Assembly (NCBI RefSeq): GCF_023278365.1
Contig: NZ_CP075338.1
Coordinates: 1,674,001-1,738,000 of the forward strand
Direction of reading: 5' to 3'
From: Epilithonimonas zeae
GTDB taxonomy: Bacteria; Bacteroidota; Bacteroidia; Flavobacteriales; Weeksellaceae
Length of the DNA: 64,000 nucleotides
A program made the position numbers and the translations under genes. Positions within the stretch are counted from its first letter, which is position 1, and the number at the start of each line of letters is the position of its first letter. Positions 2,982-54,831 of this stretch are shown here, piece by piece. Below the pieces are notes generated by a model. It ran no database searches. It saw only the letters and a list, made by a program, of their open reading frames with translations, and had not been told where the DNA came from.

Positions 2982-3032
2982 TTTGTCATTCCGGAGGAAT
3001 CTCAACAGTCTGGATTCCTCCGGAATGACAAA
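2982..3032. repeat. Palindromic element E, copy 1
   Basis: Perfect 20-bp inverted repeat: TTTGTCATTCCGGAGGAATC at 2982-3001 and its complement at 3013-3032, with an 11-nt loop. A diverged copy with the same tttgtc...gaatct arm design lies at 19539-19607. No U-run follows on either strand, so it is a REP-like palindrome rather than a plain terminator. Confidence 0.8.
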
Positions 3033-7883: not shown

Positions 7884-7922
7884 TATATCTAAGTACCAAA
7901 TTTGATTGACCGACAAAATCCA

Positions 7923-8036
7923 TAGCCCCGATAGTAACGGCATCCTTTTTTGTCATTGCGGTGAAAAGTTCTGAAGATTGCTTCACTTCGTTCGCAATGA
8001 CAAAAAAGATATAGTGGATAGCGGGATTAAGCTCCT
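7923..8036 (+). repeat. Element A, copy 1
   Basis: Begins TAGCCCCGATAGTAACGGCA and ends GGATAGCGGGATTAAGCTCCT. The interior is a long palindrome, CTTTTTTGTCATTGCG...CGCAATGACAAAAAAG. It shares both ends with copies at 13887, 32928, 49492 and 54752. A 61-codon frame runs through it on the minus strand but is not conserved in the other copies, so it is treated as non-coding. Confidence 0.85.
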
Positions 8037-19757: not shown

Positions 19758-21239
19758 TTATACTGTTTTGATAGACTTCATCGCCGTCATTGCCTGACGC
19801 AGTTTTCTGCCGACAATTTCTACCGGATGATTTCTCAAAACATCGTTCACATAAACCAATTGAGCGTTGTCAACCGAAGTTTTTTTGCCTTCGTTGAAGT
19901 CTTTTCCAACCAAATCCGTATCCACCGACTTCATAAAATCTGCCAGCAAAGGTTTGCAAGCCTGGTCGAACAGGTAACAGCCGTATTCTGCAGTGTCGGA
20001 AATCACACGATTCATCTCGAACAGTTTTTTTCGTGCGATGGTATTGGCAATCAAAGGGGTTTCGTGAAGCGATTCGTAATAAGCGGATTCCGGCTTGATT
20101 CCGGCTTCAACCATCGTTTCAAACGCTAATTCAACACCCGCTCTGATGAAGGCCGACATCAAAAGATAATTGTCAAAATATTCCTGCTCCTCGATTTTCA
20201 CATCCCCTGCCGGTGTTTTTTCAAAAGCTGTTTCTCCTGTTTCTGCACGCCATTTCAAAAGGTTGGCATCGCCGTTTGCCCAGTCTTCCATCATTGTTTT
20301 GGAAAATTCACCGGAGATGATATCGTCCTGGTGCTTTTGGAAAAGCGGACGCATAATATCTTTCAGTTCTTCTGACAATTCAAAGGCTTTTAGTTTTGCA
20401 GGGTTAGAAAGTCTGTCCAGCATTCCGCTTACACCGCCGTGTTTCAAGGCTTCTGTAATAACCTCAACACCATATTGAACCAATTTGGAAGCGTAACCTG
20501 CATCAATTCCTTTTTCGACCATTTTGTCAAACGAAAGAATAGAACCTGTCTGCAAAAGTCCGCACAAAATCGTCTGTTCTCCCATCAAATCGGACTTCAC
20601 TTCTGCCACGAAAGAGGATTTCAAAACACCGGCTTTGTGACCGCCTGTTCCTACACAATATGCTTTTGCTTCTGCCCAACCTTTTCCCTGAGGGTCATTT
20701 TCAGGATGAACAGCAATCAGCGTCGGAACACCGAAACCTCGCAGATATTCGGCACGAACTTCGGAACCCGGACATTTTGGAGCGACCATAATCACCGTCA
20801 AATCTTTACGAATCTGCATCCCTTCTTCCACGATATTGAACCCGTGTGAATAGGACAAAGTCGCACCCTGTTTCATCAAAGGCTGAACCGAAGTGATTAC
20901 CGAAGTGTGTTGCTTGTCAGGCGTTAAATTGATGACCAAATCCGCAGTGGGAATCAGTTCTTCGTAAGTTCCGACTTTGAAATTATTTTCGGTTGCGTTT
21001 TTCCACGAATCTCTCTTTTGGTCGATAGCTTCCTGACGCAATGCGTAAGAAACGTCCAGTCCGCTGTCTCTGAGATTCAGACCTTGATTCAGCCCCTGAG
21101 CGCCGCAGCCAACCACTACGATTTTCTTTCCTTTCAATGCAGAAACGCCATCAGAAAACTCTGAACTGTCCATAAATTCCGCCTGTCCTAACTGATGCAA
21201 CTGATCTCTGAGTGATAAGGTATTGAAATAATTTGCCAT
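19758..21239 (-). CDS. ilvC: Ketol-acid reductoisomerase, class II
   Basis: Rearranges and reduces acetolactate and acetohydroxybutyrate with NADPH, the second common step of valine and isoleucine synthesis. At 493 residues it is the long class II form like E. coli IlvC. The nucleotide loop is [12 protein letters not shown] near 42, and the catalytic acidic residues lie in [13 protein letters not shown] near 215. The C-terminal knotted domain is duplicated as in the class. It is preceded by ilvN (101-bp gap) and followed by element B copy 2. It is probably part of the ilvE-D-B-N-C mRNA. Confidence 0.97.
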
Positions 21240-21340
21240 ATTTTTAAGTAAAAAGTAAAAAGTATCAAGTAAAAAGATTACCGTAACTACTTTTTAGGAT
21301 TAATATTTTTTTGATTTTTAAATTTTAATTTTTTGAAAAA

Positions 21341-21946
21341 TTACATTGTGAAAACATCGTCTCTTTTATCGAGATATTCGTTTTCAATAAGTTCGGGAGA
21401 TGGTTCTCTTTTTTCAAACTCGAGGACTTTTTCGTGGATTCCTGCGCTGTTTTTGATGATTGCGATTCTTGCTCCACGCACGAATTCGATGAGCCCGTAT
21501 TTGTTGAGCTCTTCAGTTAACCGGTCGATTTCTTCCCGATGTCCTGCCGTTTCAAAAACGATGTAATCCTGACGAATCACAACTGTAGATGCGCCATACT
21601 GACGAAGCAATCGTTCTACATAGACCTTTTCTGTCACCACATTTGCGGGGACTTTGTAAAGTGCCTGTTCCTGCCAGACAATTTCATCATCTGTATTGAA
21701 ATAAGCTTTCAGAATGTCGATTTGTTTTTCCAGCTGACGGCAAAGTTTTCTTACGACTTCTTCGGTTTCATTAATGAGAATTGTGAATCTGTGAATGCCT
21801 TCCACCTCGGAAGGAGATGTATTCAAACTCTCGATATTGATTTTTCTTCGTGAAAAAATCCCTGAAATTCTGCCAATTAATCCAACAGAATTTTCGGTGT
21901 ATAATGTGATGGTAAATTCTTGTTTTTCCATTGTTTTGTTTTTCAA
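21341..21946 (-). CDS. ilvN: Acetolactate synthase regulatory (small) subunit
   Basis: Activates the IlvB catalytic subunit and gives it feedback control by branched-chain amino acids. The 201-residue protein has an N-terminal ACT domain (about 9-85; NSVGLIGRISGIFSRRKINI) and a C-terminal half typical of IlvH-type subunits. The gene may start at 21946 or at the second ATG at 21931 (MEKQEFT), since Met-Glu-Lys there directly precedes the ACT domain. It is separated from ilvB by hairpin series G copy 1 (164-bp gap). Confidence 0.95.
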   Translation of the reverse strand: MKNKTMEKQEFTITLYTENSVGLIGRISGIFSRRKINIESLNTSPSEVEGIHRFTILINETEEVVRKLCRQLEKQIDILKAYFNTDDEIVWQEQALYKVPANVVTEKVYVERLLRQYGASTVVIRQDYIVFETAGHREEIDRLTEELNKYGLIEFVRGARIAIIKNSAGIHEKVLEFEKREPSPELIENEYLDKRDDVFTM

Positions 21947-21970
21947 AATTCCCGTTATTGGAATGATATT

Positions 21971-22100
21971 GAACCCTTCGGGTTTCGTGGGATGTTGATC
22001 TTATATTCCATAGGTTGCACCTACGGCTATTCATATTAAACCCTTCGGGTTTTGATGGGATTTTCATCCTATCCTTTATTAAGTCGTCCTTTCGGGACTT
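21971..22100. repeat. Hairpin series G, copy 1 (ilvN-ilvB gap)
   Basis: Four small hairpins in a row: AACCCTTCGGGTT, CCATAGGTTGCACCTACGG, AACCCTTCGGGTT again, then a GATGGGATTTTCATCC stem and GTCCTTTCGGGAC. The same units occur at 23880-23980 and 25868-25971, only in gaps of the ilv cluster. Confidence 0.8.
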
Positions 22101-22110
22101 TGTTGAAAAT

Positions 22111-23853
22111 TTATTTTAAACGAATTTCTGAAACCGAAGTTCCTTGGGCTACCATTGGGAAAACGTTATTTTCTTTTCCCACCATTACTTCCAAAAGATA
22201 TGCGCCATCGTGATTGAGCATTGTTTCCAAAGCTGTTTTTAGGTCTTTCCTTTCTGATATTTTTTGTCCATCGATGTAATATCCTTTTGCAACGGCTACG
22301 AAATCTGGGCTCGTGATATTTACAAAAGAGTAACGCCTGTCGTGGAAAAGCTGTTGCCATTGTCTTACCATTCCGAGGAATTCATTGTTTAGAATCAGGA
22401 TTTTGACCTTCGCTCCGAACTGCATAATGGTTCCTAATTCCTGCAACGTCATCTGGAATCCGCCATCTCCAATGATTGCAACCACTGTTTTTTCTGGTGC
22501 GCCATACCAAGCGCCGATTGCGGCCGGCAAACCAAATCCCATTGTTCCCAATCCGCCTGAGGTTACGCTGGATTTAGAATTATTGAATTGAGCATATCTG
22601 CAAGCAACCATCTGATGCTGACCAACATCGGTTGTGATTATTGCATCGCCATTTGTAAGCTCATTAAGAACTTTGATGACTTCTCCCATTGTCATTACAT
22701 CGGTTGTGGGATTCAGTTCTTCTGTAATTACTTCTTTGATTTCTTCTTTTTCCAACTCACGGAATTTTTCCAACCATTCTGAATGGTCATTGTTTTTTAG
22801 AAGCGCTGTCAGCATCGGAAGTGTCTTTTTACAATTCCCCCAAACCGGAACGGTGGTCTTCACATTTTTATCAATTTCGGCCGGGTCAATATCGAGATGA
22901 ATTACTTTCGCCTGTTTTGCATATTTATCCAAACGACCCGTAACCCTATCATCGAAACGCATTCCGACCGCAATCAGAACATCACATTCGTTGGTCATTA
23001 CATTGGGTGCGTAATTGCCGTGCATTCCCAGCATTCCGACGTGTAGTTTGTGGCTGGTTGGAAGCGCACTCAATCCCATTACAGTTGCTGCTGCAGGAAG
23101 ATTAACTTTCTCAATAAATGTTTTGAATTCTTCTTCGGCTTTTCCCAAAATCACCCCTTGTCCAAACAAAATAAATGGCTTTTTTGCCTGATTAATCAAT
23201 TCTGCGGCCTGTTCGATATATTCATTTCTGATTTCCGGCTCCGGGCAGTAACTTCTGATATGATTGCATTTTTTATACCCCGAATATTCGAATAATTGCA
23301 ACTGGGCATTTTTGGTAATATCAATCAAAACCGGACCTGGTCGACCCGTACTTGCGATATGAAAAGCTTTCGCAATCGCTTCCGGAATTTCGGTTGCATC
23401 GGTTACCTGATAATTCCATTTTGTAACCGGCGTTGTGATATTGATGACATCGGTTTCCTGAAAAGCATCCGTTCCCAAAAGTGATGCAAAAACCTGACCT
23501 GTAATACAAACAATCGGATTGCTGTCTATCATTGCATCCGCTAAACCTGTCACCAGATTGGTTGCACCGGGACCACTGGTTGCAAATACAACCCCCGTTT
23601 TTCCGGAAGTTCTTGCAAATCCCTGTGCAGCGTGAATGGCACCTTGCTCGTGACGAACCAAAATATGTTTTAGTTTTTCGGAATAGTCGTACAAAGCATC
23701 ATAAATCGGCATAATTGCGCCACCGGGATAACCGAAAACTGTATGTACATTTTCCTGCAACAGAGCTTCTAAAACGGCTTTGGAACCGGATATTTCTACC
23801 GGTTTTGGCTGTTCTAATTCTATATTTTCTATTTGTGAAATGGTATTGTTCAT
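22111..23853 (-). CDS. ilvB: Acetolactate synthase catalytic (large) subunit
   Basis: Condenses pyruvate with pyruvate or 2-oxobutanoate, using thiamine diphosphate, FAD and Mg2+; it is the first common step to valine, leucine and isoleucine. The 580-residue protein has the catalytic Glu in HEQGAIHAAQGFAR near 68, the FAD-domain MLGMHG, and the ThDP/Mg motif GDGGFQMT...NNEFLGMVRQWQ near 455-485. The N-terminal 20 residues, rich in Glu and Pro, precede the domain and may be flexible. It lies between hairpin series G copies 1 and 2, in the order ilvD-ilvB-ilvN. Confidence 0.97.
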   Translation of the reverse strand: MNNTISQIENIELEQPKPVEISGSKAVLEALLQENVHTVFGYPGGAIMPIYDALYDYSEKLKHILVRHEQGAIHAAQGFARTSGKTGVVFATSGPGATNLVTGLADAMIDSNPIVCITGQVFASLLGTDAFQETDVINITTPVTKWNYQVTDATEIPEAIAKAFHIASTGRPGPVLIDITKNAQLQLFEYSGYKKCNHIRSYCPEPEIRNEYIEQAAELINQAKKPFILFGQGVILGKAEEEFKTFIEKVNLPAAATVMGLSALPTSHKLHVGMLGMHGNYAPNVMTNECDVLIAVGMRFDDRVTGRLDKYAKQAKVIHLDIDPAEIDKNVKTTVPVWGNCKKTLPMLTALLKNNDHSEWLEKFRELEKEEIKEVITEELNPTTDVMTMGEVIKVLNELTNGDAIITTDVGQHQMVACRYAQFNNSKSSVTSGGLGTMGFGLPAAIGAWYGAPEKTVVAIIGDGGFQMTLQELGTIMQFGAKVKILILNNEFLGMVRQWQQLFHDRRYSFVNITSPDFVAVAKGYYIDGQKISERKDLKTALETMLNHDGAYLLEVMVGKENNVFPMVAQGTSVSEIRLK

Positions 23854-23879
23854 TTTTAATATTTTTTCCGTTTAAGATT

Positions 23880-23980
23880 GAACCCTTCGGGTTCTGATTT
23901 GTTTGGGTTTATATCCATTCCATAGGTTTCACCTACGACTACTGATATTGAATCCTTCGGATTCGTTTTGAATTTATATC
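23880..23980. repeat. Hairpin series G, copy 2 (ilvB-ilvD gap)
   Basis: AACCCTTCGGGTT, then CCATAGGTTTCACCTACG, then AATCCTTCGGATT. The third hairpin differs from copy 1 by paired changes (C to T with G to A), keeping the stem. Element B copy 3 follows at 24041. Confidence 0.8.
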
Positions 23981-24040
23981 CTGTTTTCAAATTTCACCTC
24001 CAGATTTTTTTAAAACATTATTTTGAAACGCAATACGATT

Positions 24041-24146
24041 GCAGCCCGGCTTGAACGGAGCTCTTTTTGCGATGACCAAATAGTTCAACTTATTGCTTCA
24101 TTTTGTTCGCAAAAAAGCGGGAGTGGAAGACGGAAATAGCTGCCCC
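24041..24146 (+). repeat. Element B, copy 3
   Basis: The outer ends GCAGC and GCTGC pair. The left part is CCCGGCTTGAACGGAGCTC and the right part is AGCGGGAGTGGAAGACGG. The central palindrome is CTTTTTGCGA...TTCGCAAAAAAG. It ends 26 bp beyond the ilvD stop codon. Confidence 0.85.
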
Positions 24147-24171
24147 AAATAATATCTTACTCATTATTATC

Positions 24172-25854
24172 TTATAAATCGGTGACACAGCCTTGTGAGG
24201 CATCTGCTACAGATTTGGCATATTTGTACAACACCCCGCTTTTTACTTTGTATTCAGGTTGCTGGAATTCGGCTTTTCTTTTGGCAATTTCTTCATCCGA
24301 CAACAATGCGTTGATGGTATTTTTTTCAGCATCCAATTCAATCACATCTCCATCTTTAATCAAGCCAATCAATCCTCCGGCAAAACCTTCCGGCGTGATA
24401 TGACCAACAACGAAGCCGTGCGTTCCTCCGGAAAATCTTCCGTCGGTAATCAGTGCGACATTTTTACCTAAGCCTGAACCCATCAAAGCGGAAGTCGGTT
24501 TGAGCATTTCCGGCATTCCGGGTGCGCCTTTTGGGCCTTCATTTTTGATTACAACTACATTTCCTTCCTGAATTTTTTTATCTTCGATACCTTTGATGAA
24601 TTCTTTTTCGCCATCAAAAACTATTGCTGTTCCTTTGAAATAAGCACCTTCTTTTCCTGTAATTTTCGCAACAGAACCTTTCTCAGCAAGATTTCCATAC
24701 ATAATTCTAATGTGGCCAGTTTCTTTGATTGGATTTTTGATATCGTGAATGATATTCTGCTGTCTGTTTATAATTGAAGTCACGTGTTCCAAATTTTCAG
24801 CAATGGTTTTTCCCGTAACCGTTAAACAATCGCCGTGAAGTAAGCCTAAATCCAATAGATACTTCATCACTGCAGGAACGCCGCCGACTTTATGAAGGTC
24901 TTCCATCAAGTATTTACCACTTGGTTTAAGGTCTGCTAAGAATGGAGTTTCATCACTGATTTTTTGAAAATCATCCAAAGTCAAATCGTATCCTATGGAT
25001 TTTGCAATGGCGATAAAATGGAGAACTGCATTGGTACTTCCTCCCAGAATCATAATTAACCTCAACGCATTTTCGAAAGCTTTTGGTGTCATTATATCGG
25101 ATGGTTTGATATCTTTTTCAAGAAGAATTTTAACATAATGTCCGGCAAACTGACATTCTTCTTTTTTCTCTTTACTAAGTGCGGGATAAGAAGAAGAATA
25201 AGGTAAACTCATTCCGAGAGCTTCAATTGCTGAAGCCATTGTATTAGCTGTGTACATTCCACCACAAGCTCCTGCACTTGGGCAGGAATTCTGAATCACA
25301 CCCTGAAAATCTTCTTCGGAAATTTTACCTGCAATTTTATTTCCCAACGCTTCAAAAGCTGAAACGATGTTCAAATCTTCGCCTTTGTAATGTCCCGGCG
25401 CAATACTTCCGCCATAAACCATTATCGAAGGGCGGTCGAGACGAGCCATCGCCATCAGAGAACCCGGCATATTTTTGTCGCAACCCGGAACAGTAATCAA
25501 TCCGTCGTAATATTGTCCGGCGCAAACTGCTTCGATAGAATCTGCAATGATGTCTCGACTTACGAGGGAATAACGCATTCCATCGGTTCCGTTGGTCATT
25601 CCGTCACTGATTCCGATGGTGTGGAACATTAATCCAACTAGATTCTGTTCTTTAACCCCTTTTTTTACAATCTCAGCCAAACCATTCAGGTGCATATTAC
25701 AAGTATTGCCGTCGTAACCCATACTTGCAATTCCGATCTGTGCTTTGTCAAAATCTTCTTTTTGAAATCCAATCCCATAAAACATCGCCTGAGTTGCGGG
25801 TTGAGTTGGGTCTTTCGTGAGTGTTTTGGAATATTTGTTTAAATTTTCAGACAT
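24172..25854 (-). CDS. ilvD: Dihydroxy-acid dehydratase
   Basis: Dehydrates dihydroxy acids to 2-oxoisovalerate and 2-oxo-3-methylvalerate, the third common step. The 560-residue protein has the Fe-S cysteines in [10 protein letters not shown] near 125 and [16 protein letters not shown] near 195, the signature [10 protein letters not shown] near 276, and the C-terminal [10 protein letters not shown] near 470. The number and placing of cysteines fit a Fe-S enzyme of this family, but the 2Fe-2S versus 4Fe-4S type was not determined. It is the second gene of the cluster, after ilvE, with hairpin series G copy 3 in the gap. Confidence 0.97.
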
Positions 25855-25976: not shown

Positions 25977-26885
25977 TTATTTTTCTAAGATTAAATTTTC
26001 GGATTTCAGATATGAATAATCTTCTTCTAACACCAAATGACGATAAGCCATTTGAATTTTTGATGATAAACTGTCTTCCCAATTCAGTTTGAAAGGAACG
26101 TTATCCAGAGAATCTAAGGCTACAATTTCAGCCGCAGTTCCACAGAAAAATCCGGCATCTGTACCTTGCATTTCTTCCGGTTTGAAAAACTTTTCTTCTG
26201 TAGGAATTCCGAATTCTTCACAAAGCTTTAAAGCTGTTGCACGAGTAATTCCCGGAAGAATGCTTCCTTTTGCTGGTGTAAATAATTTTCCGTCTTTTTC
26301 GAAGAAAATATTTGCTCCCGAACTTTCAGCTACATTTCCGTCAGCATCAAGGACCAACGCTTCATCATAACCTTTATCCTTAGCTTCCTGACAAGCTAAA
26401 ATCGAGTTCACATAATGACCGCTGACTTTTGCTTCCACTTTGAAAGCTTTTGGATTCGGACGTTCAAAAGAAGACGTCATAATTCTCATTTTGTTGGCGA
26501 GATAACCGTTGTCCCAATTCCAAACTTCGATTACGAGATAACTTTTTTGTCCTTTTGATAATGACATATTCGGAGAACAAATGACAATCGGACGGATATA
26601 TGCATTACTCAGATTATTAATTTCCAACAATTTGTAAGTTGCTTCTACCATTTCTTCGGTAGAATAATCGAAAGGAATCAGCATAGTTTCTGCTGATTTA
26701 CGAAGTCTGTCGTAATGTTCCTCTGCTTTGAAAATTTTGGTTCCGTTGACTGTTTTATAAGATTTAATTCCTTCGAAAACGGCATATCCGTAGTGTAAAG
26801 ATTGGCCGTACAAGTCGGTCTTGGCTTCTTTTGCTTTCACATATGCCCCATCAAAGAAGAGAACACTGTCGTCATTGTAATACAT
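25977..26885 (-). CDS. ilvE: Branched-chain amino acid aminotransferase
   Basis: Transfers the amino group from glutamate to the 2-oxo acids, the last step for valine, leucine and isoleucine. The 302-residue class IV PLP enzyme has the PLP lysine K153 in KVSGHYVNS, the signature ALVLDADGNVAESSGANIFF near 176, and the phosphate-binding LPGITRATAL near 212. It is the first large gene of the cluster, 112 bp downstream of the leader peptide stop and directly downstream of the attenuator-like terminator. All ilv genes behind it should share that control. Confidence 0.97.
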   Translation of the reverse strand: MYYNDDSVLFFDGAYVKAKEAKTDLYGQSLHYGYAVFEGIKSYKTVNGTKIFKAEEHYDRLRKSAETMLIPFDYSTEEMVEATYKLLEINNLSNAYIRPIVICSPNMSLSKGQKSYLVIEVWNWDNGYLANKMRIMTSSFERPNPKAFKVEAKVSGHYVNSILACQEAKDKGYDEALVLDADGNVAESSGANIFFEKDGKLFTPAKGSILPGITRATALKLCEEFGIPTEEKFFKPEEMQGTDAGFFCGTAAEIVALDSLDNVPFKLNWEDSLSSKIQMAYRHLVLEEDYSYLKSENLILEK

Positions 26886-26924: not shown

Positions 26925-26956
26925 AATAAAAAAACCACTCTCGTGATGAGAGTGGT
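26925..26956 (-). terminator. Attenuator terminator of the ilv operon
   Basis: On the minus strand ACCACTCTC-ATCAC-GAGAGTGGT is followed by seven T. It lies in the leader, 41 nt after the leader peptide stop and about 40 nt before ilvE, where a plain terminator would switch the operon off. GGTGGT at the end of the leader peptide (27005-27000) can pair with ACCACT of its left arm (26956-26951; the first G makes a G-U pair), which would prevent the terminator. Confidence 0.85.
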
Positions 26957-26997
26957 CTGTATTAATTTCAATTTCAAAAATTATCACAAGCCATCCC

Positions 26998-27054
26998 TCA
27001 CCACCGGAATCCGATAATGCTAATAATGACAATAATAATTACTGAATAACTCAT
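26998..27054 (-). CDS. ilvL: ilv operon leader peptide (18 residues)
   Basis: A short frame on the minus strand reads MSYSVIIIVIISIIGFRW and stops with TGA. It has seven Ile and two Val, nine of ten consecutive residues from Val5 to Ile14 being Ile or Val, the two main products of the operon below. It begins about 14 nt after the predicted start of transcription and ends 41 nt before an intrinsic terminator. This is the layout of leader peptides that control ilv operons by ribosome stalling, such as E. coli ilvL, with which it shares no obvious sequence. Low charged Ile- or Val-tRNA should stall the ribosome and allow read-through. The reading frame and arrangement are seen; the mechanism is inferred. 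Confidence 0.85.
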   Translation of the reverse strand: MSYSVIIIVIISIIGFRW

Positions 27055-27073
27055 CTTTTTGTTTTGAACGGTA

Positions 27074-27102
27074 CAAATGTATAAACTTTATTGAATTTTC
27101 AA
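27074..27102 (-). promoter_or_regulatory. ilvLp: Promoter of the ilv operon
   Basis: On the minus strand TTG (27102-27100), an 18-bp spacer and TACATTTG (27081-27074) match the Bacteroidota consensus TTG-N17-20-TAnnTTTG. Transcription should begin near 27068, about 14 nt before the leader peptide ATG. Confidence 0.75.
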
Positions 27103-27352: not shown

Positions 27353-28762
27353 TTAAAAATGAACCTGCTGGATTTCTTCTTCAATTTCTTTTGGTGTTTC
27401 GTCTTGAGACTTAATGAAAATCATTGTAATCAAAGCACCCAACAACATACAAACGCCACCAACTATAACATAGTCAATCGCCATTTTTCCGAATAGATTG
27501 GAAACAATTGGTCCTCCAAAAATACCATTAATGATTTGAGGAACTACGATAAAAAAATTGAAAATCCCCATATAAACGCCCATTTTTCTTTGTGGAATTG
27601 CATCGATTAACATTGCATAAGGCATTGCTAAAATACTAGCCCAAGCAAATCCCAAACCTATCATCGAAATCCAAAGCATTGATGTGTCTTTGATAAAATA
27701 CATAGAAATCAATCCTAAACCACCACTCGCCAAAGCCAATGCATGGGTTTGCTTTTTCCCGATGATTTTTGCAATAGGCGTCAACAAGAACGCAAAAGGG
27801 ATTGCAAAAAGATTATATAATCCAAATAAATGTCCTGTTAAATCTCCAGCTCTATTGAAATCGACTGATTTTGTATCTTCCGGTGACAATCCGAAATGAT
27901 GTGTCGCCAAAGCACTTGTTGTGAAAACCCACATGGTAAATAATGCAAACCAAGAAAAGAATTGAACGATTCCTAATTTCTTCATCAAGCTTGGAATATT
28001 CGCAAAATCCTTGAACATATCTGAGAATTTTGAAGGTTCTTCCACGGTTTCTTTTCCGCCTTCAAATTCAGCAAATTCTTGTGGAGAGTATTCTTTGGTT
28101 GTGAAAATCGTGTAGAGAATTGAAATAATAAGAACCGTAGCTCCAATGTAGAAAGCATAAATTACATTATCTGCAACATAACCTTCTGGTGCAGCATTTG
28201 AGATTCCTAGCTTCGTCAACCAGTTCGGCATTTCTGAGCCAATTACCGCTCCGATTCCAATCAAAATAGTTTGGATAGAAAACCCTAAAGTTCCCTGATG
28301 TTTTGGCAACATATCTCCGACCAAAGCCCGGAAAGGTTCCATTGCAATGTTTACGGAAAAGTCCATCATCGCCAGGAAAATTACAGCAAGTAATAAAACA
28401 TTCGCTGCAATCATGTGCGTTACCGAAGCCGCATTTGGAAGCAAAACCAATCCTATTGCACATAAAACTGCACCAATCAAGAAATAAGGTTTTCTTCTTC
28501 CCAACGGACTCCAAGTGTTATCCCCCATATGTCCAATAATTGGCTGGACGATTAAACCTGTAACTGGCGCCACCAGCCAAAACCAGGATAATTCGTGAAC
28601 GTCTGCTCCAAGATTTGCTAAAATTCTACTGGCATTTCCGTTCTGTAAGCCAAATGCCATCTGGATTCCCAAAAATCCCATACTCATATTGATAATCTGA
28701 GCGATGGAAAGATTTGGTTTTATTCTCTTTGTAAAAATTGTATCTGTTTGTTTTGCTCTCAT
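27353..28762 (-). CDS. MFS sugar transporter, SLC45-like (probable maltose/maltodextrin carrier)
   Basis: A 469-residue inner-membrane carrier with about 12 hydrophobic helices. It contains GLIVQPIIGHMGDNTWSPLGRRKPY-type loop 2-3 sequence (RRKPYFLIGA) and a central cytoplasmic loop, both typical of SLC45/sucrose-type MFS proteins. Such carriers are found in Bacteroidota maltose clusters and bring glucose or maltose into the cell. Its ATG shares a base with the stop codon of the upstream gene (TAATG), so translation is probably coupled. As the last gene of the glucan cluster it would take up the sugars released by the GH13 and GH97 enzymes. The exact substrate is inferred. Confidence 0.87.
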   Translation of the reverse strand: MRAKQTDTIFTKRIKPNLSIAQIINMSMGFLGIQMAFGLQNGNASRILANLGADVHELSWFWLVAPVTGLIVQPIIGHMGDNTWSPLGRRKPYFLIGAVLCAIGLVLLPNAASVTHMIAANVLLLAVIFLAMMDFSVNIAMEPFRALVGDMLPKHQGTLGFSIQTILIGIGAVIGSEMPNWLTKLGISNAAPEGYVADNVIYAFYIGATVLIISILYTIFTTKEYSPQEFAEFEGGKETVEEPSKFSDMFKDFANIPSLMKKLGIVQFFSWFALFTMWVFTTSALATHHFGLSPEDTKSVDFNRAGDLTGHLFGLYNLFAIPFAFLLTPIAKIIGKKQTHALALASGGLGLISMYFIKDTSMLWISMIGLGFAWASILAMPYAMLIDAIPQRKMGVYMGIFNFFIVVPQIINGIFGGPIVSNLFGKMAIDYVIVGGVCMLLGALITMIFIKSQDETPKEIEEEIQQVHF

Positions 28763-32910: not shown

Positions 32911-32927
32911 TTTGGAGTTAAATGCCA

Positions 32928-33015
32928 TAGCCCCGATAGTAGCGGCTACCCCACAGCAAGCCTTGGGAAAAGCTTTAGCGCGAGGAGTAATAGCGAATAG
33001 CGGGATTAAGCTCCT
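32928..33015 (+). repeat. Element A, copy 3 (subtype with CCCCACAGC core)
   Basis: Begins TAGCCCCGATAGTAGCGGCT and ends ATAGCGGGATTAAGCTCCT. The core CCCCACAGCAAGCcTTGG...GCGCGAGGAGT matches copy 2. A hairpin stands 18 bp to its left. Confidence 0.85.
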
Positions 33016-49450: not shown

Positions 49451-49490
49451 AATAACAACCTCAAAGAAATTTCTTTGAGGTTGTTATTTT
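49451..49490 (+). terminator. Terminator after the AAA+ gene; left hairpin of element A copy 4
   Basis: Perfect 19-bp arms meet without a spacer: AATAACAACCTCAAAGAAA and its complement (49451-49469, 49470-49488), with T after it. The same hairpin with paired base changes stands in front of copy 5 (54711-54748). Confidence 0.85.
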
Positions 49491-49491
49491 C

Positions 49492-49571
49492 TAGCCCCGA
49501 TAGTAGCGGCATCCTTTTTCTTTTTTTGCTAAAAAAGAAAAAGATATAGTGGATAGCGGGATTAAGCTCCT
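49492..49571 (+). repeat. Element A, copy 4
   Basis: Begins TAGCCCCGATAGTAGCGGCA and ends GGATAGCGGGATTAAGCTCCT. The centre is a 13-bp palindrome CTTTTTCTTTTTT-TGCT-AAAAAAGAAAAAG. It differs from copy 5 by one base inside the element (T for C before GGATAG). Confidence 0.9.
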
Positions 49572-54748: not shown

Positions 54749-54751
54749 TTT

Positions 54752-54831
54752 TAGCCCCGATAGTAGCGGCATCCTTTTTCTTTTTTTGCTAAAAAAGAAA
54801 AAGATATAGCGGATAGCGGGATTAAGCTCCT
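54752..54831 (+). repeat. Element A, copy 5
   Basis: Begins TAGCCCCGATAGTAGCGGCA and ends GGATAGCGGGATTAAGCTCCT. It is nearly identical to copy 4, including the flanking hairpin. Its right end is 6 bp from the AIM24 stop codon. Confidence 0.9.

Follow-up and report, generated by a model that had tools for sequence, protein, structure and literature searches.

A predicted leader-peptide attenuator in front of the ilvE-led operon of an Epilithonimonas genome and its tandem form in related genomes

We analysed a stretch of 64,000 nucleotides (nt), hereafter the window, that spans positions 1674001-1738000 of a 3.94-Mb single-contig genome of the genus Epilithonimonas, and we focused on the leader of its ilv operon, which begins with the branched-chain aminotransferase gene ilvE. 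With high confidence we interpret this leader as a classical leader-peptide attenuator, in which a ribosome mediates the termination of transcription under the control of codons for isoleucine (Ile) and valine (Val). The regulator is of a known kind, new as a member of that kind, and well supported. The stronger and unexpected result is the tandem architecture that we observed in relatives. The window leader probably represents a Bacteroidota attenuator class in its single-module form; the commoner form in the family would be a two-stage switch wired in series.

The initial annotation of the window had placed a promoter, an 18-codon frame and an intrinsic terminator in front of ilvE, and all three were read in the sequence at those places on the reverse strand. 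The parts of the leader, including the open reading frame (ORF) and the RNA segments, are the following.

27074..27102, reverse strand: putative Bacteroidota-type promoter, with TTG at 27102-27100, then 18 nt, then TACATTTG at 27081-27074
26998..27054, reverse strand: leader ORF of 18 codons, MSYSVIIIVIISIIGFRW, from the ATG at 27054 to the TGA at 27000-26998
26979..27040, reverse strand: hairpin 1:2 (protector, or anti-antiterminator), from folding, in which the Ile/Val codons pair with segment 2 and with bases after the stop codon
27019-27011 with 27007-26999, reverse strand: inner helix of hairpin 1:2, from folding
27030-27025 with 26995-26990, reverse strand: middle helix of hairpin 1:2, from folding
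27040-27032 with 26987-26979, reverse strand: outer helix of hairpin 1:2, from folding
26991..27004, reverse strand: segment 2, GTGGTGAGGGATGG, which holds the stop codon and pairs with segment 3
26943..26955, reverse strand: segment 3, CCACTCTCATCAC, the 3' side of the antiterminator and the 5' arm and loop of the terminator
26928..26958, reverse strand: intrinsic terminator (segments 3:4), with the stem at 26958-26932 and seven T at 26934-26928

The box TACATTTG stands 19 nt ahead of the leader ATG and fits TAnnTTTG, which we take to be the Bacteroidota promoter box. This promoter was absent from the sigma-70-like sites found by a scan of the 1-kb region, and the transcription start is expected at about 27069. 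No Shine-Dalgarno-like box was seen before the leader ATG in the window sequence; Bacteroidota ribosomes initiate mostly without Shine-Dalgarno pairing. The leader ORF is probably translated. Control codons 5-14 (27042-27013) read V I I I V I I S I I. Nine of these ten consecutive codons code for Ile or Val, as had been proposed, and the run matches the product of the operon. Between the leader ORF and ilvE, a gene confirmed by the model TIGR01122, lies the predicted intrinsic terminator with its seven T. A simple scan of both strands of the 1-kb region found 4 terminator-like sites, compared to 0.4 (standard deviation 0.7) in shuffles.

In the classical segment model, segment 2 pairs either with the control-codon region or with the 5' arm of the terminator. 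The window leader can form both structures. Hairpin 1:2 and the antiterminator share segment 2, while the terminator and the antiterminator share segment 3, and the folds are therefore mutually exclusive; the antiterminator uses the 5' arm of the terminator. It is formed by GTGGTGAG-g-GATGG (27004-26991) with CCACTCTCATCAC (26955-26943), in 12 standard pairs with one A-C mismatch and one bulge. The alternative fold had first been proposed for GGTGGT at the end of the frame. That motif is indeed part of the antiterminator, but the real register is longer and continues past the stop codon.

Under the proposed mechanism, a ribosome would begin the 18-codon leader on a transcript started near the expected site. 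With ample charged transfer RNA for Ile and Val, it would reach the stop codon and cover segment 2; segment 3 would be left free, the terminator would form with segment 4, and RNA polymerase would halt before ilvE. If Ile or Val were short, the ribosome would stall at codons 5-14 and open hairpin 1:2, segment 2 would stay free and capture segment 3, no terminator would form, and ilvE-D-B-H-C would be transcribed. With no translation, hairpin 1:2 would form and the terminator would win. Read-through is thus expected to depend on Ile and Val.

The geometry of the leader is compatible with this sequence of events in a footprint model, and in that model only, which assumes a distance of 16 nt between the first base of the P-site codon and the first free base. 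A stall at the control codons frees segment 2 and arrival at the stop codon masks it: the segment was fully free (14 nt) when the A site held any of codons 5-13, 12 nt were free at codon 14, then 9, 6 and 3 nt at codons 15, 16 and 17, and none at codon 18 or at the stop. For the 155 modules of the 99 family ilvE upstreams considered below, the model left segment 2 free at four or more codons for Ile, Val or leucine (Leu) in all 155, and a stop-bound ribosome masked at least half of the segment in 154. Constrained folding energies changed in the same direction. For the full leader with no ribosome the terminator had -42.2 and the antiterminator -36.2 kcal/mol, compared to -27.6 and -30.8 kcal/mol when the RNA was free from leader nt 37 on, and -26.0 and -30.8 kcal/mol when it was free from nt 43 on.

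For comparison with relatives, an IlvE search gave 73 loci, in which the match normally starts at position 3001; five loci where it did not (L062, L065, L066, L068 and L032) were left out of the leader tally. The Weeksellaceae set consisted of L001-L034 and L042, and 34 of these 35 had valid upstream sequence. A leader with at least six of eight consecutive codons for Ile, Leu or Val was present in 31 of the 34. The three upstreams that lacked it (L027, L029 and L034) may be like genomes with extra sequence between leader and ilvE; in G174, G210 and G221, such sequence puts the match of our leader model R1 (see below) 480-572 nt upstream of ilvE. Extra sequence of ~0.5 kb separates the ilv leader from ilvE in some genomes of genus g20 (L131, L153, L154 and L158).

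Pair conservation was counted on an alignment of 30 leaders (A1, 29 distinct rows); the sequences in it are related, and the shuffle counts given for it are not probabilities. The initial annotation had suggested this comparison, and the proposal held: the 30 relatives keep the Ile/Val run and its frame, and likewise the antiterminator and the terminator arms. In the terminator 98.7% of the cells were paired, with slid controls at or below 67.1%, and its arms covaried as expected, with three pairs changed on both sides. The antiterminator (segments 2:3) had 95.7% of its cells paired, compared to at most 61.0% when slid. For GGTGGT:ACCACT alone the value was 91.4%; one of its pairs fails in 11 of the 29 distinct sequences and no double change was seen. 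In hairpin 1:2, paired cells made up 99.6% of the inner helix, 86.1% of the middle and outer helices together, and 86.4% of the whole structure; an additional outermost helix, beyond 26979..27040, was poorly kept (57.1%). In the diverged relatives L026, L028, L030, L031, L033 and L042, read by eye, changes in the terminator seem to be accompanied by changes in segment 2. For example, L028 has GCGAGGTGG with CCATCCTCGC, a joint change of the terminator and segment 2, and L033 has GTGAGAAGG with CCCTCTCAC, with 8 of 9 pairs formed.

The reading frame showed a pattern of its own. In all 30 aligned leaders, the ATG and the last Ile codon were a multiple of three nt apart, while the distance from that codon to segment 2 was 20 nt in 22 rows, 21 in six and 19 in one, with one row misread by the anchor. 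The frame is therefore guarded only up to the last Ile codon. Beyond it the C-termini vary (IIGFRW, IIGLPVMSNGS, IIGFSVMGNGL, IIGFR) and the RNA pairing is kept. In L001, the relative with the most similar IlvE (94%), the TGA of the leader (2833-2958) has become TGG and the peptide has 26 amino acids. These observations bear on the possibility that the ORF encodes a small functional peptide, perhaps of the membrane, and that the hairpin is an ordinary terminator between this ORF and ilvE. The peptide is hydrophobic and conserved across the genus, as such an explanation would have it. We nevertheless regard it as very unlikely: the frame is lost past the last Ile codon where the pairing persists, as the extended L001 peptide illustrates; the leaders of Chitinophaga (see below) have, by eye, only the Ile/Val run in common with it; and all 16 strong matches to the leader model in the genus precede ilvE.

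The last point came from a covariance model, R1, built from A1, for which a strong match was one of 130 bits or more; presence of ilvE was called at E <= 1e-60. Of the 23 genus genomes, 16 had a strong match; these are exactly the 16 with ilvE, and each match ended 33-45 nt before that gene, so that across the genus the leader occurs where ilvE does. In the seven genomes that lack ilvE no R1 match exceeded 37.1 bits, and the next best match in the genus, at 45.7 bits, was a leader rich in threonine (Thr) before a thrA-like gene. We inspected 20 places with low scores (those of 18 genomes, one place in the own genome, and a second place in G136). They include other leaders, before thrA (L121), a leuA-type gene (L134) and ilvD (L137); in L122 the match lies 258 nt before a thrA-like gene, and in L138 (42.4 bits) and L139 (45.3 bits) no ORF of at least 100 codons follows the match within the stretch. 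Since matches under about 50 bits are mixed, the tallies of 22/23 and 208/246 genomes at E <= 0.1 were not used as leader counts.

A module detector, which looks for an Ile/Leu/Val-rich short ORF followed by a terminator, was run on the 99 family ilvE upstreams. At least one module was found in 94 of them, whereas none of 990 dinucleotide shuffles and none of the 99 reverse strands gave one. With a stricter detector, 53 of 64 ilvE starts were positive, versus 1 of 402 other ORF starts, and this lone positive was an in-frame upstream ATG of ilvE itself (L060). For 135 of the 155 modules, no more than 5% of the shuffled regions attained the antiterminator score of the module. The region is AT-rich and short helices are common there, which could suggest that the hairpin mainly ends an upstream or antisense transcript and that the alternative pairings arose by chance. 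Given the shuffle and reverse-strand counts and the antiterminator scores, along with the fact that the gene upstream of the leader (27353-28762) has a terminator-like site of its own at 27327-27304, we see hardly any chance that this is so.

Besides the RNA, the codons themselves were conserved: 279 of 300 control-codon cells in A1 were Ile, Leu or Val. The initial annotation noted the lack of Leu codons in the peptide, and this is true of the window species; in many relatives, however, one or two Leu codons are present. Of the 61 Val codons of single-module leaders, 51 were GTC, versus 30 of 202 in seven window ORFs, possibly because the Ile/Val run itself forms the 5' arm of hairpin 1:2.

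Outside the Weeksellaceae set, 28 of 34 valid loci (of 38) had a short frame with at least seven of eight consecutive codons for Ile, Leu or Val. These loci are mostly from Chitinophaga and its kin, and their leader sequence is unrelated to that of the window. Side observations were made on the Chitinophaga leaders (L035, L037-L040, L043-L056 and L069, upstream of 3001). These have 37-38 codons and keep the N-terminal MWVNKDN..HIVPQLNWAIT, or a close form of it, ahead of the Val/Ile run. CCTCC directly precedes the ATG in five of the six that were displayed, and it could pair with GGAGG near the stop codon.

The own genome has other leaders of this kind. Its hisG gene is preceded by a leader with a run of histidine (His) codons, MSIQLMHHHHHSHVQAGR, and a terminator (L255, reverse strand, about G000:C1:3519550-3519660). 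Its thrA, for an aspartokinase-homoserine dehydrogenase, is directly preceded by a Thr/Ile-rich leader, MNFIITTTTISTTTTISSCRKVCL, and a terminator.

L121 845-975 (G000:C1:209345-209474), forward strand: Thr/Ile leader before thrA, from the sequence

In the scanned stretches, pheA and the leuA-type gene of this genome both lacked a leader with a terminator. A short Ile/Leu-rich frame, MMGFNLLIIKRLLFVLIKSNIVFI, does lie 142 nt upstream of the leuA-type gene (L257, reverse strand), with no terminator-like hairpin. In another genome (G077, L134), an Ile/Leu leader, MSLFTNIISIILILGQTQGE, and a terminator stand before a leuA-type gene.

These comparisons matter for another explanation, an RNA-only switch that binds a protein or a metabolite and whose AU-rich stem arms (AUU, AUC, GUC) would yield the Ile/Val codons as a side effect. 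The codons do build the 5' arms of hairpin 1:2, and the GTC bias fits GUC:GGC pairing. A by-product of pairing would hardly account for a distance from ATG to last Ile codon that stays a multiple of three throughout or for the near-uniform control cells, and the unrelated ilv leaders in Chitinophagaceae and other families retain the Ile/Val run, while the hisG and thrA leaders of the own genome carry His and Thr codons instead. Furthermore, neither the window leader nor any of 12 related loci matched an Rfam family at gathering score. For a T-box or a metabolite riboswitch in particular, the leader had no match at gathering score and none among 8 matches at E <= 1. The best matches to known leaders, Phe_leader with 31.4 bits and Thr_leader with 19.4 bits, stayed below the gathering score of 55. 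We consider an RNA-only switch highly improbable.

Several observations weigh against the leader-peptide attenuator. First, the arm of hairpin 1:2 is made of control codons, and RNA pairing therefore also constrains the Ile/Val run. Second, covariation was nearly absent in the antiterminator, with one double-change pair, a number reached in 412 of 500 shuffles, and weak in hairpin 1:2, with four such pairs, reached by 44 of 500. The antiterminator of the window species also has the A-C mismatch inside it. Third, full masking of segment 2 at the stop is partly built into the search region; it was seen in 73% of shuffled regions versus 149 of 155 observed modules. Fourth, early stalls are not separated by the energies, since both folds had -30.8 kcal/mol when the RNA was free beginning at leader nt 31. 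Finally, in the pre-terminator transcript with no ribosome at equilibrium, 2:3 had 10.7 expected pairs and 1:2 only 1.9. Given this equilibrium preference, termination without translation would depend either on earlier formation of 1:2 or on the terminator once it is complete. On balance, comparison with relatives supported the ribosome-stalling attenuator put forward by the initial annotation, in which termination would respond to Ile and Val.

The family comprised 246 genomes, 104 of them with ilvE, and 99 upstreams were counted. Two modules were found in 61 of the 99, one in 33 and none in five. The two-module set was L123-L128, L135, L136, L140, L160-L202, L204-L206, L208, L209 and L211-L214, and L210 was counted as single despite a second terminator. 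Beyond the 99, one module was found in L231 and L232 and two in L233 and L234; G040 was left out. Among the upstreams without a module, an R1 match was nearby in L146, L153, L154 and L158, and there was none in L207. The window itself has a single module (L074). The genomes that bear tandems are related, and the counts do not represent independent events.

The typical tandem order was MNFTNQKNIIVISIIAVVINNSKETAF, terminator, MYQLLSVIIIVIIIPLRL, terminator, ilvE. We aligned 26 of 51 distinct tandem modules as A2 and 26 of 49 as A3. A second type of tandem, with MYNSIIISSIIITG... and MNLYNNNIIISIIISSPP, accompanies a more distant ilvE. Winogradskyella (L057) also has a tandem before ilvE, and so do members of other families: L215 and L222 (both f3), L242 (f36) and L254 (f31). 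In L215, L242 and L254 the second module emerged once the detector no longer required a terminator, and it was then read by sequence.

The promoter box distinguished the two leaders of a tandem. In the 45 nt ahead of the leader, TAnnTTTG occurred in all 33 single-module upstreams and, for leader 1, in 57 of 61 tandems, compared to 111 of 1188 background tiles; ahead of leader 2 it occurred over this distance in none of the 61 tandems. The tandem would thus have one promoter followed by leader 1 with terminator 1, leader 2 with terminator 2, and ilvE, and the polymerase would pass two ribosome-sensing gates. With two gates in series, read-through would be the product of two probabilities, giving a lower leak and a steeper response to Ile and Val. 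If so, the Leu codons of leader 2 could possibly add sensing of Leu. In 40 of the 61 tandems the end of the box lies 4 nt ahead of the leader 1 ATG; leader 1 would then be read from a leaderless messenger RNA.

Beyond the family, the feature was patchy. An order sample had ilvD in 34 of 119 genomes, and 16 of the 34 ilvD upstreams were examined. Seven of the 16 had an Ile/Val/Leu leader (L215, L217, L218, L220, L222, L223 and L228) and nine had none (L216, L219, L221, L224-L227, L229 and L230). A class sample of 29 places in 28 genomes gave 20 ilvD upstreams for examination, of which about five were convincing by eye (L239, L242, L248, L253 and L254); L235, L236, L243 and L245, flagged by the detector, were not counted. 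Both samples cover ilvD upstreams only, and operons that start with another gene are missed by them.

Downstream of the leader, the gene order is ilvE-D-B-H-C, with the part after ilvE spanning 19758..25854 on the reverse strand. Gene order and strand suggest that the five genes are co-transcribed.

25977..26885, reverse strand: ilvE, branched-chain aminotransferase, first gene of the operon; TIGR01122 (ilvE_I), 250.1 bits, cut-off 245.55
25854-24172, reverse strand: ilvD; TIGR00110, above cut-off
23853-22111, reverse strand: ilvB; TIGR00118, above cut-off
21946-21341, reverse strand: ilvH, start uncertain; TIGR00119, above cut-off
21239-19758, reverse strand: ilvC; TIGR00465, above cut-off

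Elsewhere in the window, the Flavo-1 RNA (RF01705) had four matches at gathering score, at 54749-54827, 49489-49567, 7920-8032 and 32925-33011, all on the forward strand.

Our literature searches, limited to openly licensed papers of PubMed Central (PMC), listed no paper about an ilv attenuator in this genus or about tandem leader-peptide modules with two intrinsic terminators. The abstract of a comparative survey by Vitreschak et al. (2004) reportedly names candidate attenuators in Bacteroidetes/Chlorobi. The leader described here adds an amino-acid attenuator to a phylum with few described in the literature consulted. As the mechanism needs a ribosome close behind RNA polymerase, the conserved geometry also provides evidence, at the level of sequence, that translation keeps up with transcription in Bacteroidota leaders.

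Leader-peptide attenuators of Escherichia coli and Salmonella are described for ilvGMEDA and ilvBN, as well as for trp, his, thr, leu and phe operons, with a race mechanism (PMC1183508). The window leader shares with the ilv attenuators of these species an ORF with control codons, a segment 2 that pairs two ways, an intrinsic terminator and a branched-chain amino acid operon; unlike them, it has a Bacteroidota promoter box, no Shine-Dalgarno-like box that we could see, and no Leu codon. Closer in phylogeny, a study of Flavobacterium psychrophilum gives clues for leader-peptide attenuation in amino-acid operons, with pheA and hisG among its structured 5' elements; its main text does not contain 'ilv', and its section on these elements has no segment model or tandem modules (PMC9723704). 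Small ORFs reminiscent of leader peptides are described in Bacteroides thetaiotaomicron (PMC7366714). The Bacteroid-trp motif (RF01692) is reported as a cis-regulatory candidate before amino-acid genes in the same phylum (PMC2864571); it differs from the window leader, which, like the 12 related loci, had no Rfam match at gathering score. In Corynebacterium, an upstream ORF of ilvB-II/ilvBNC is reported as a cis-regulatory candidate before ilvB (PMC10272879).

The tandem form resembles the Salmonella mgtCBR leader, which is described as having two short ORFs that act as successive attenuators. The mgtCBR leader, as described, responds to ATP and proline and has stem-loops unlike intrinsic terminators. 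By contrast, each module of the tandem ilv form has an intrinsic terminator, both modules carry Ile/Val codons, and both precede one biosynthetic operon. The tandem form would be a natural series-gated sensor with many variants for comparison.
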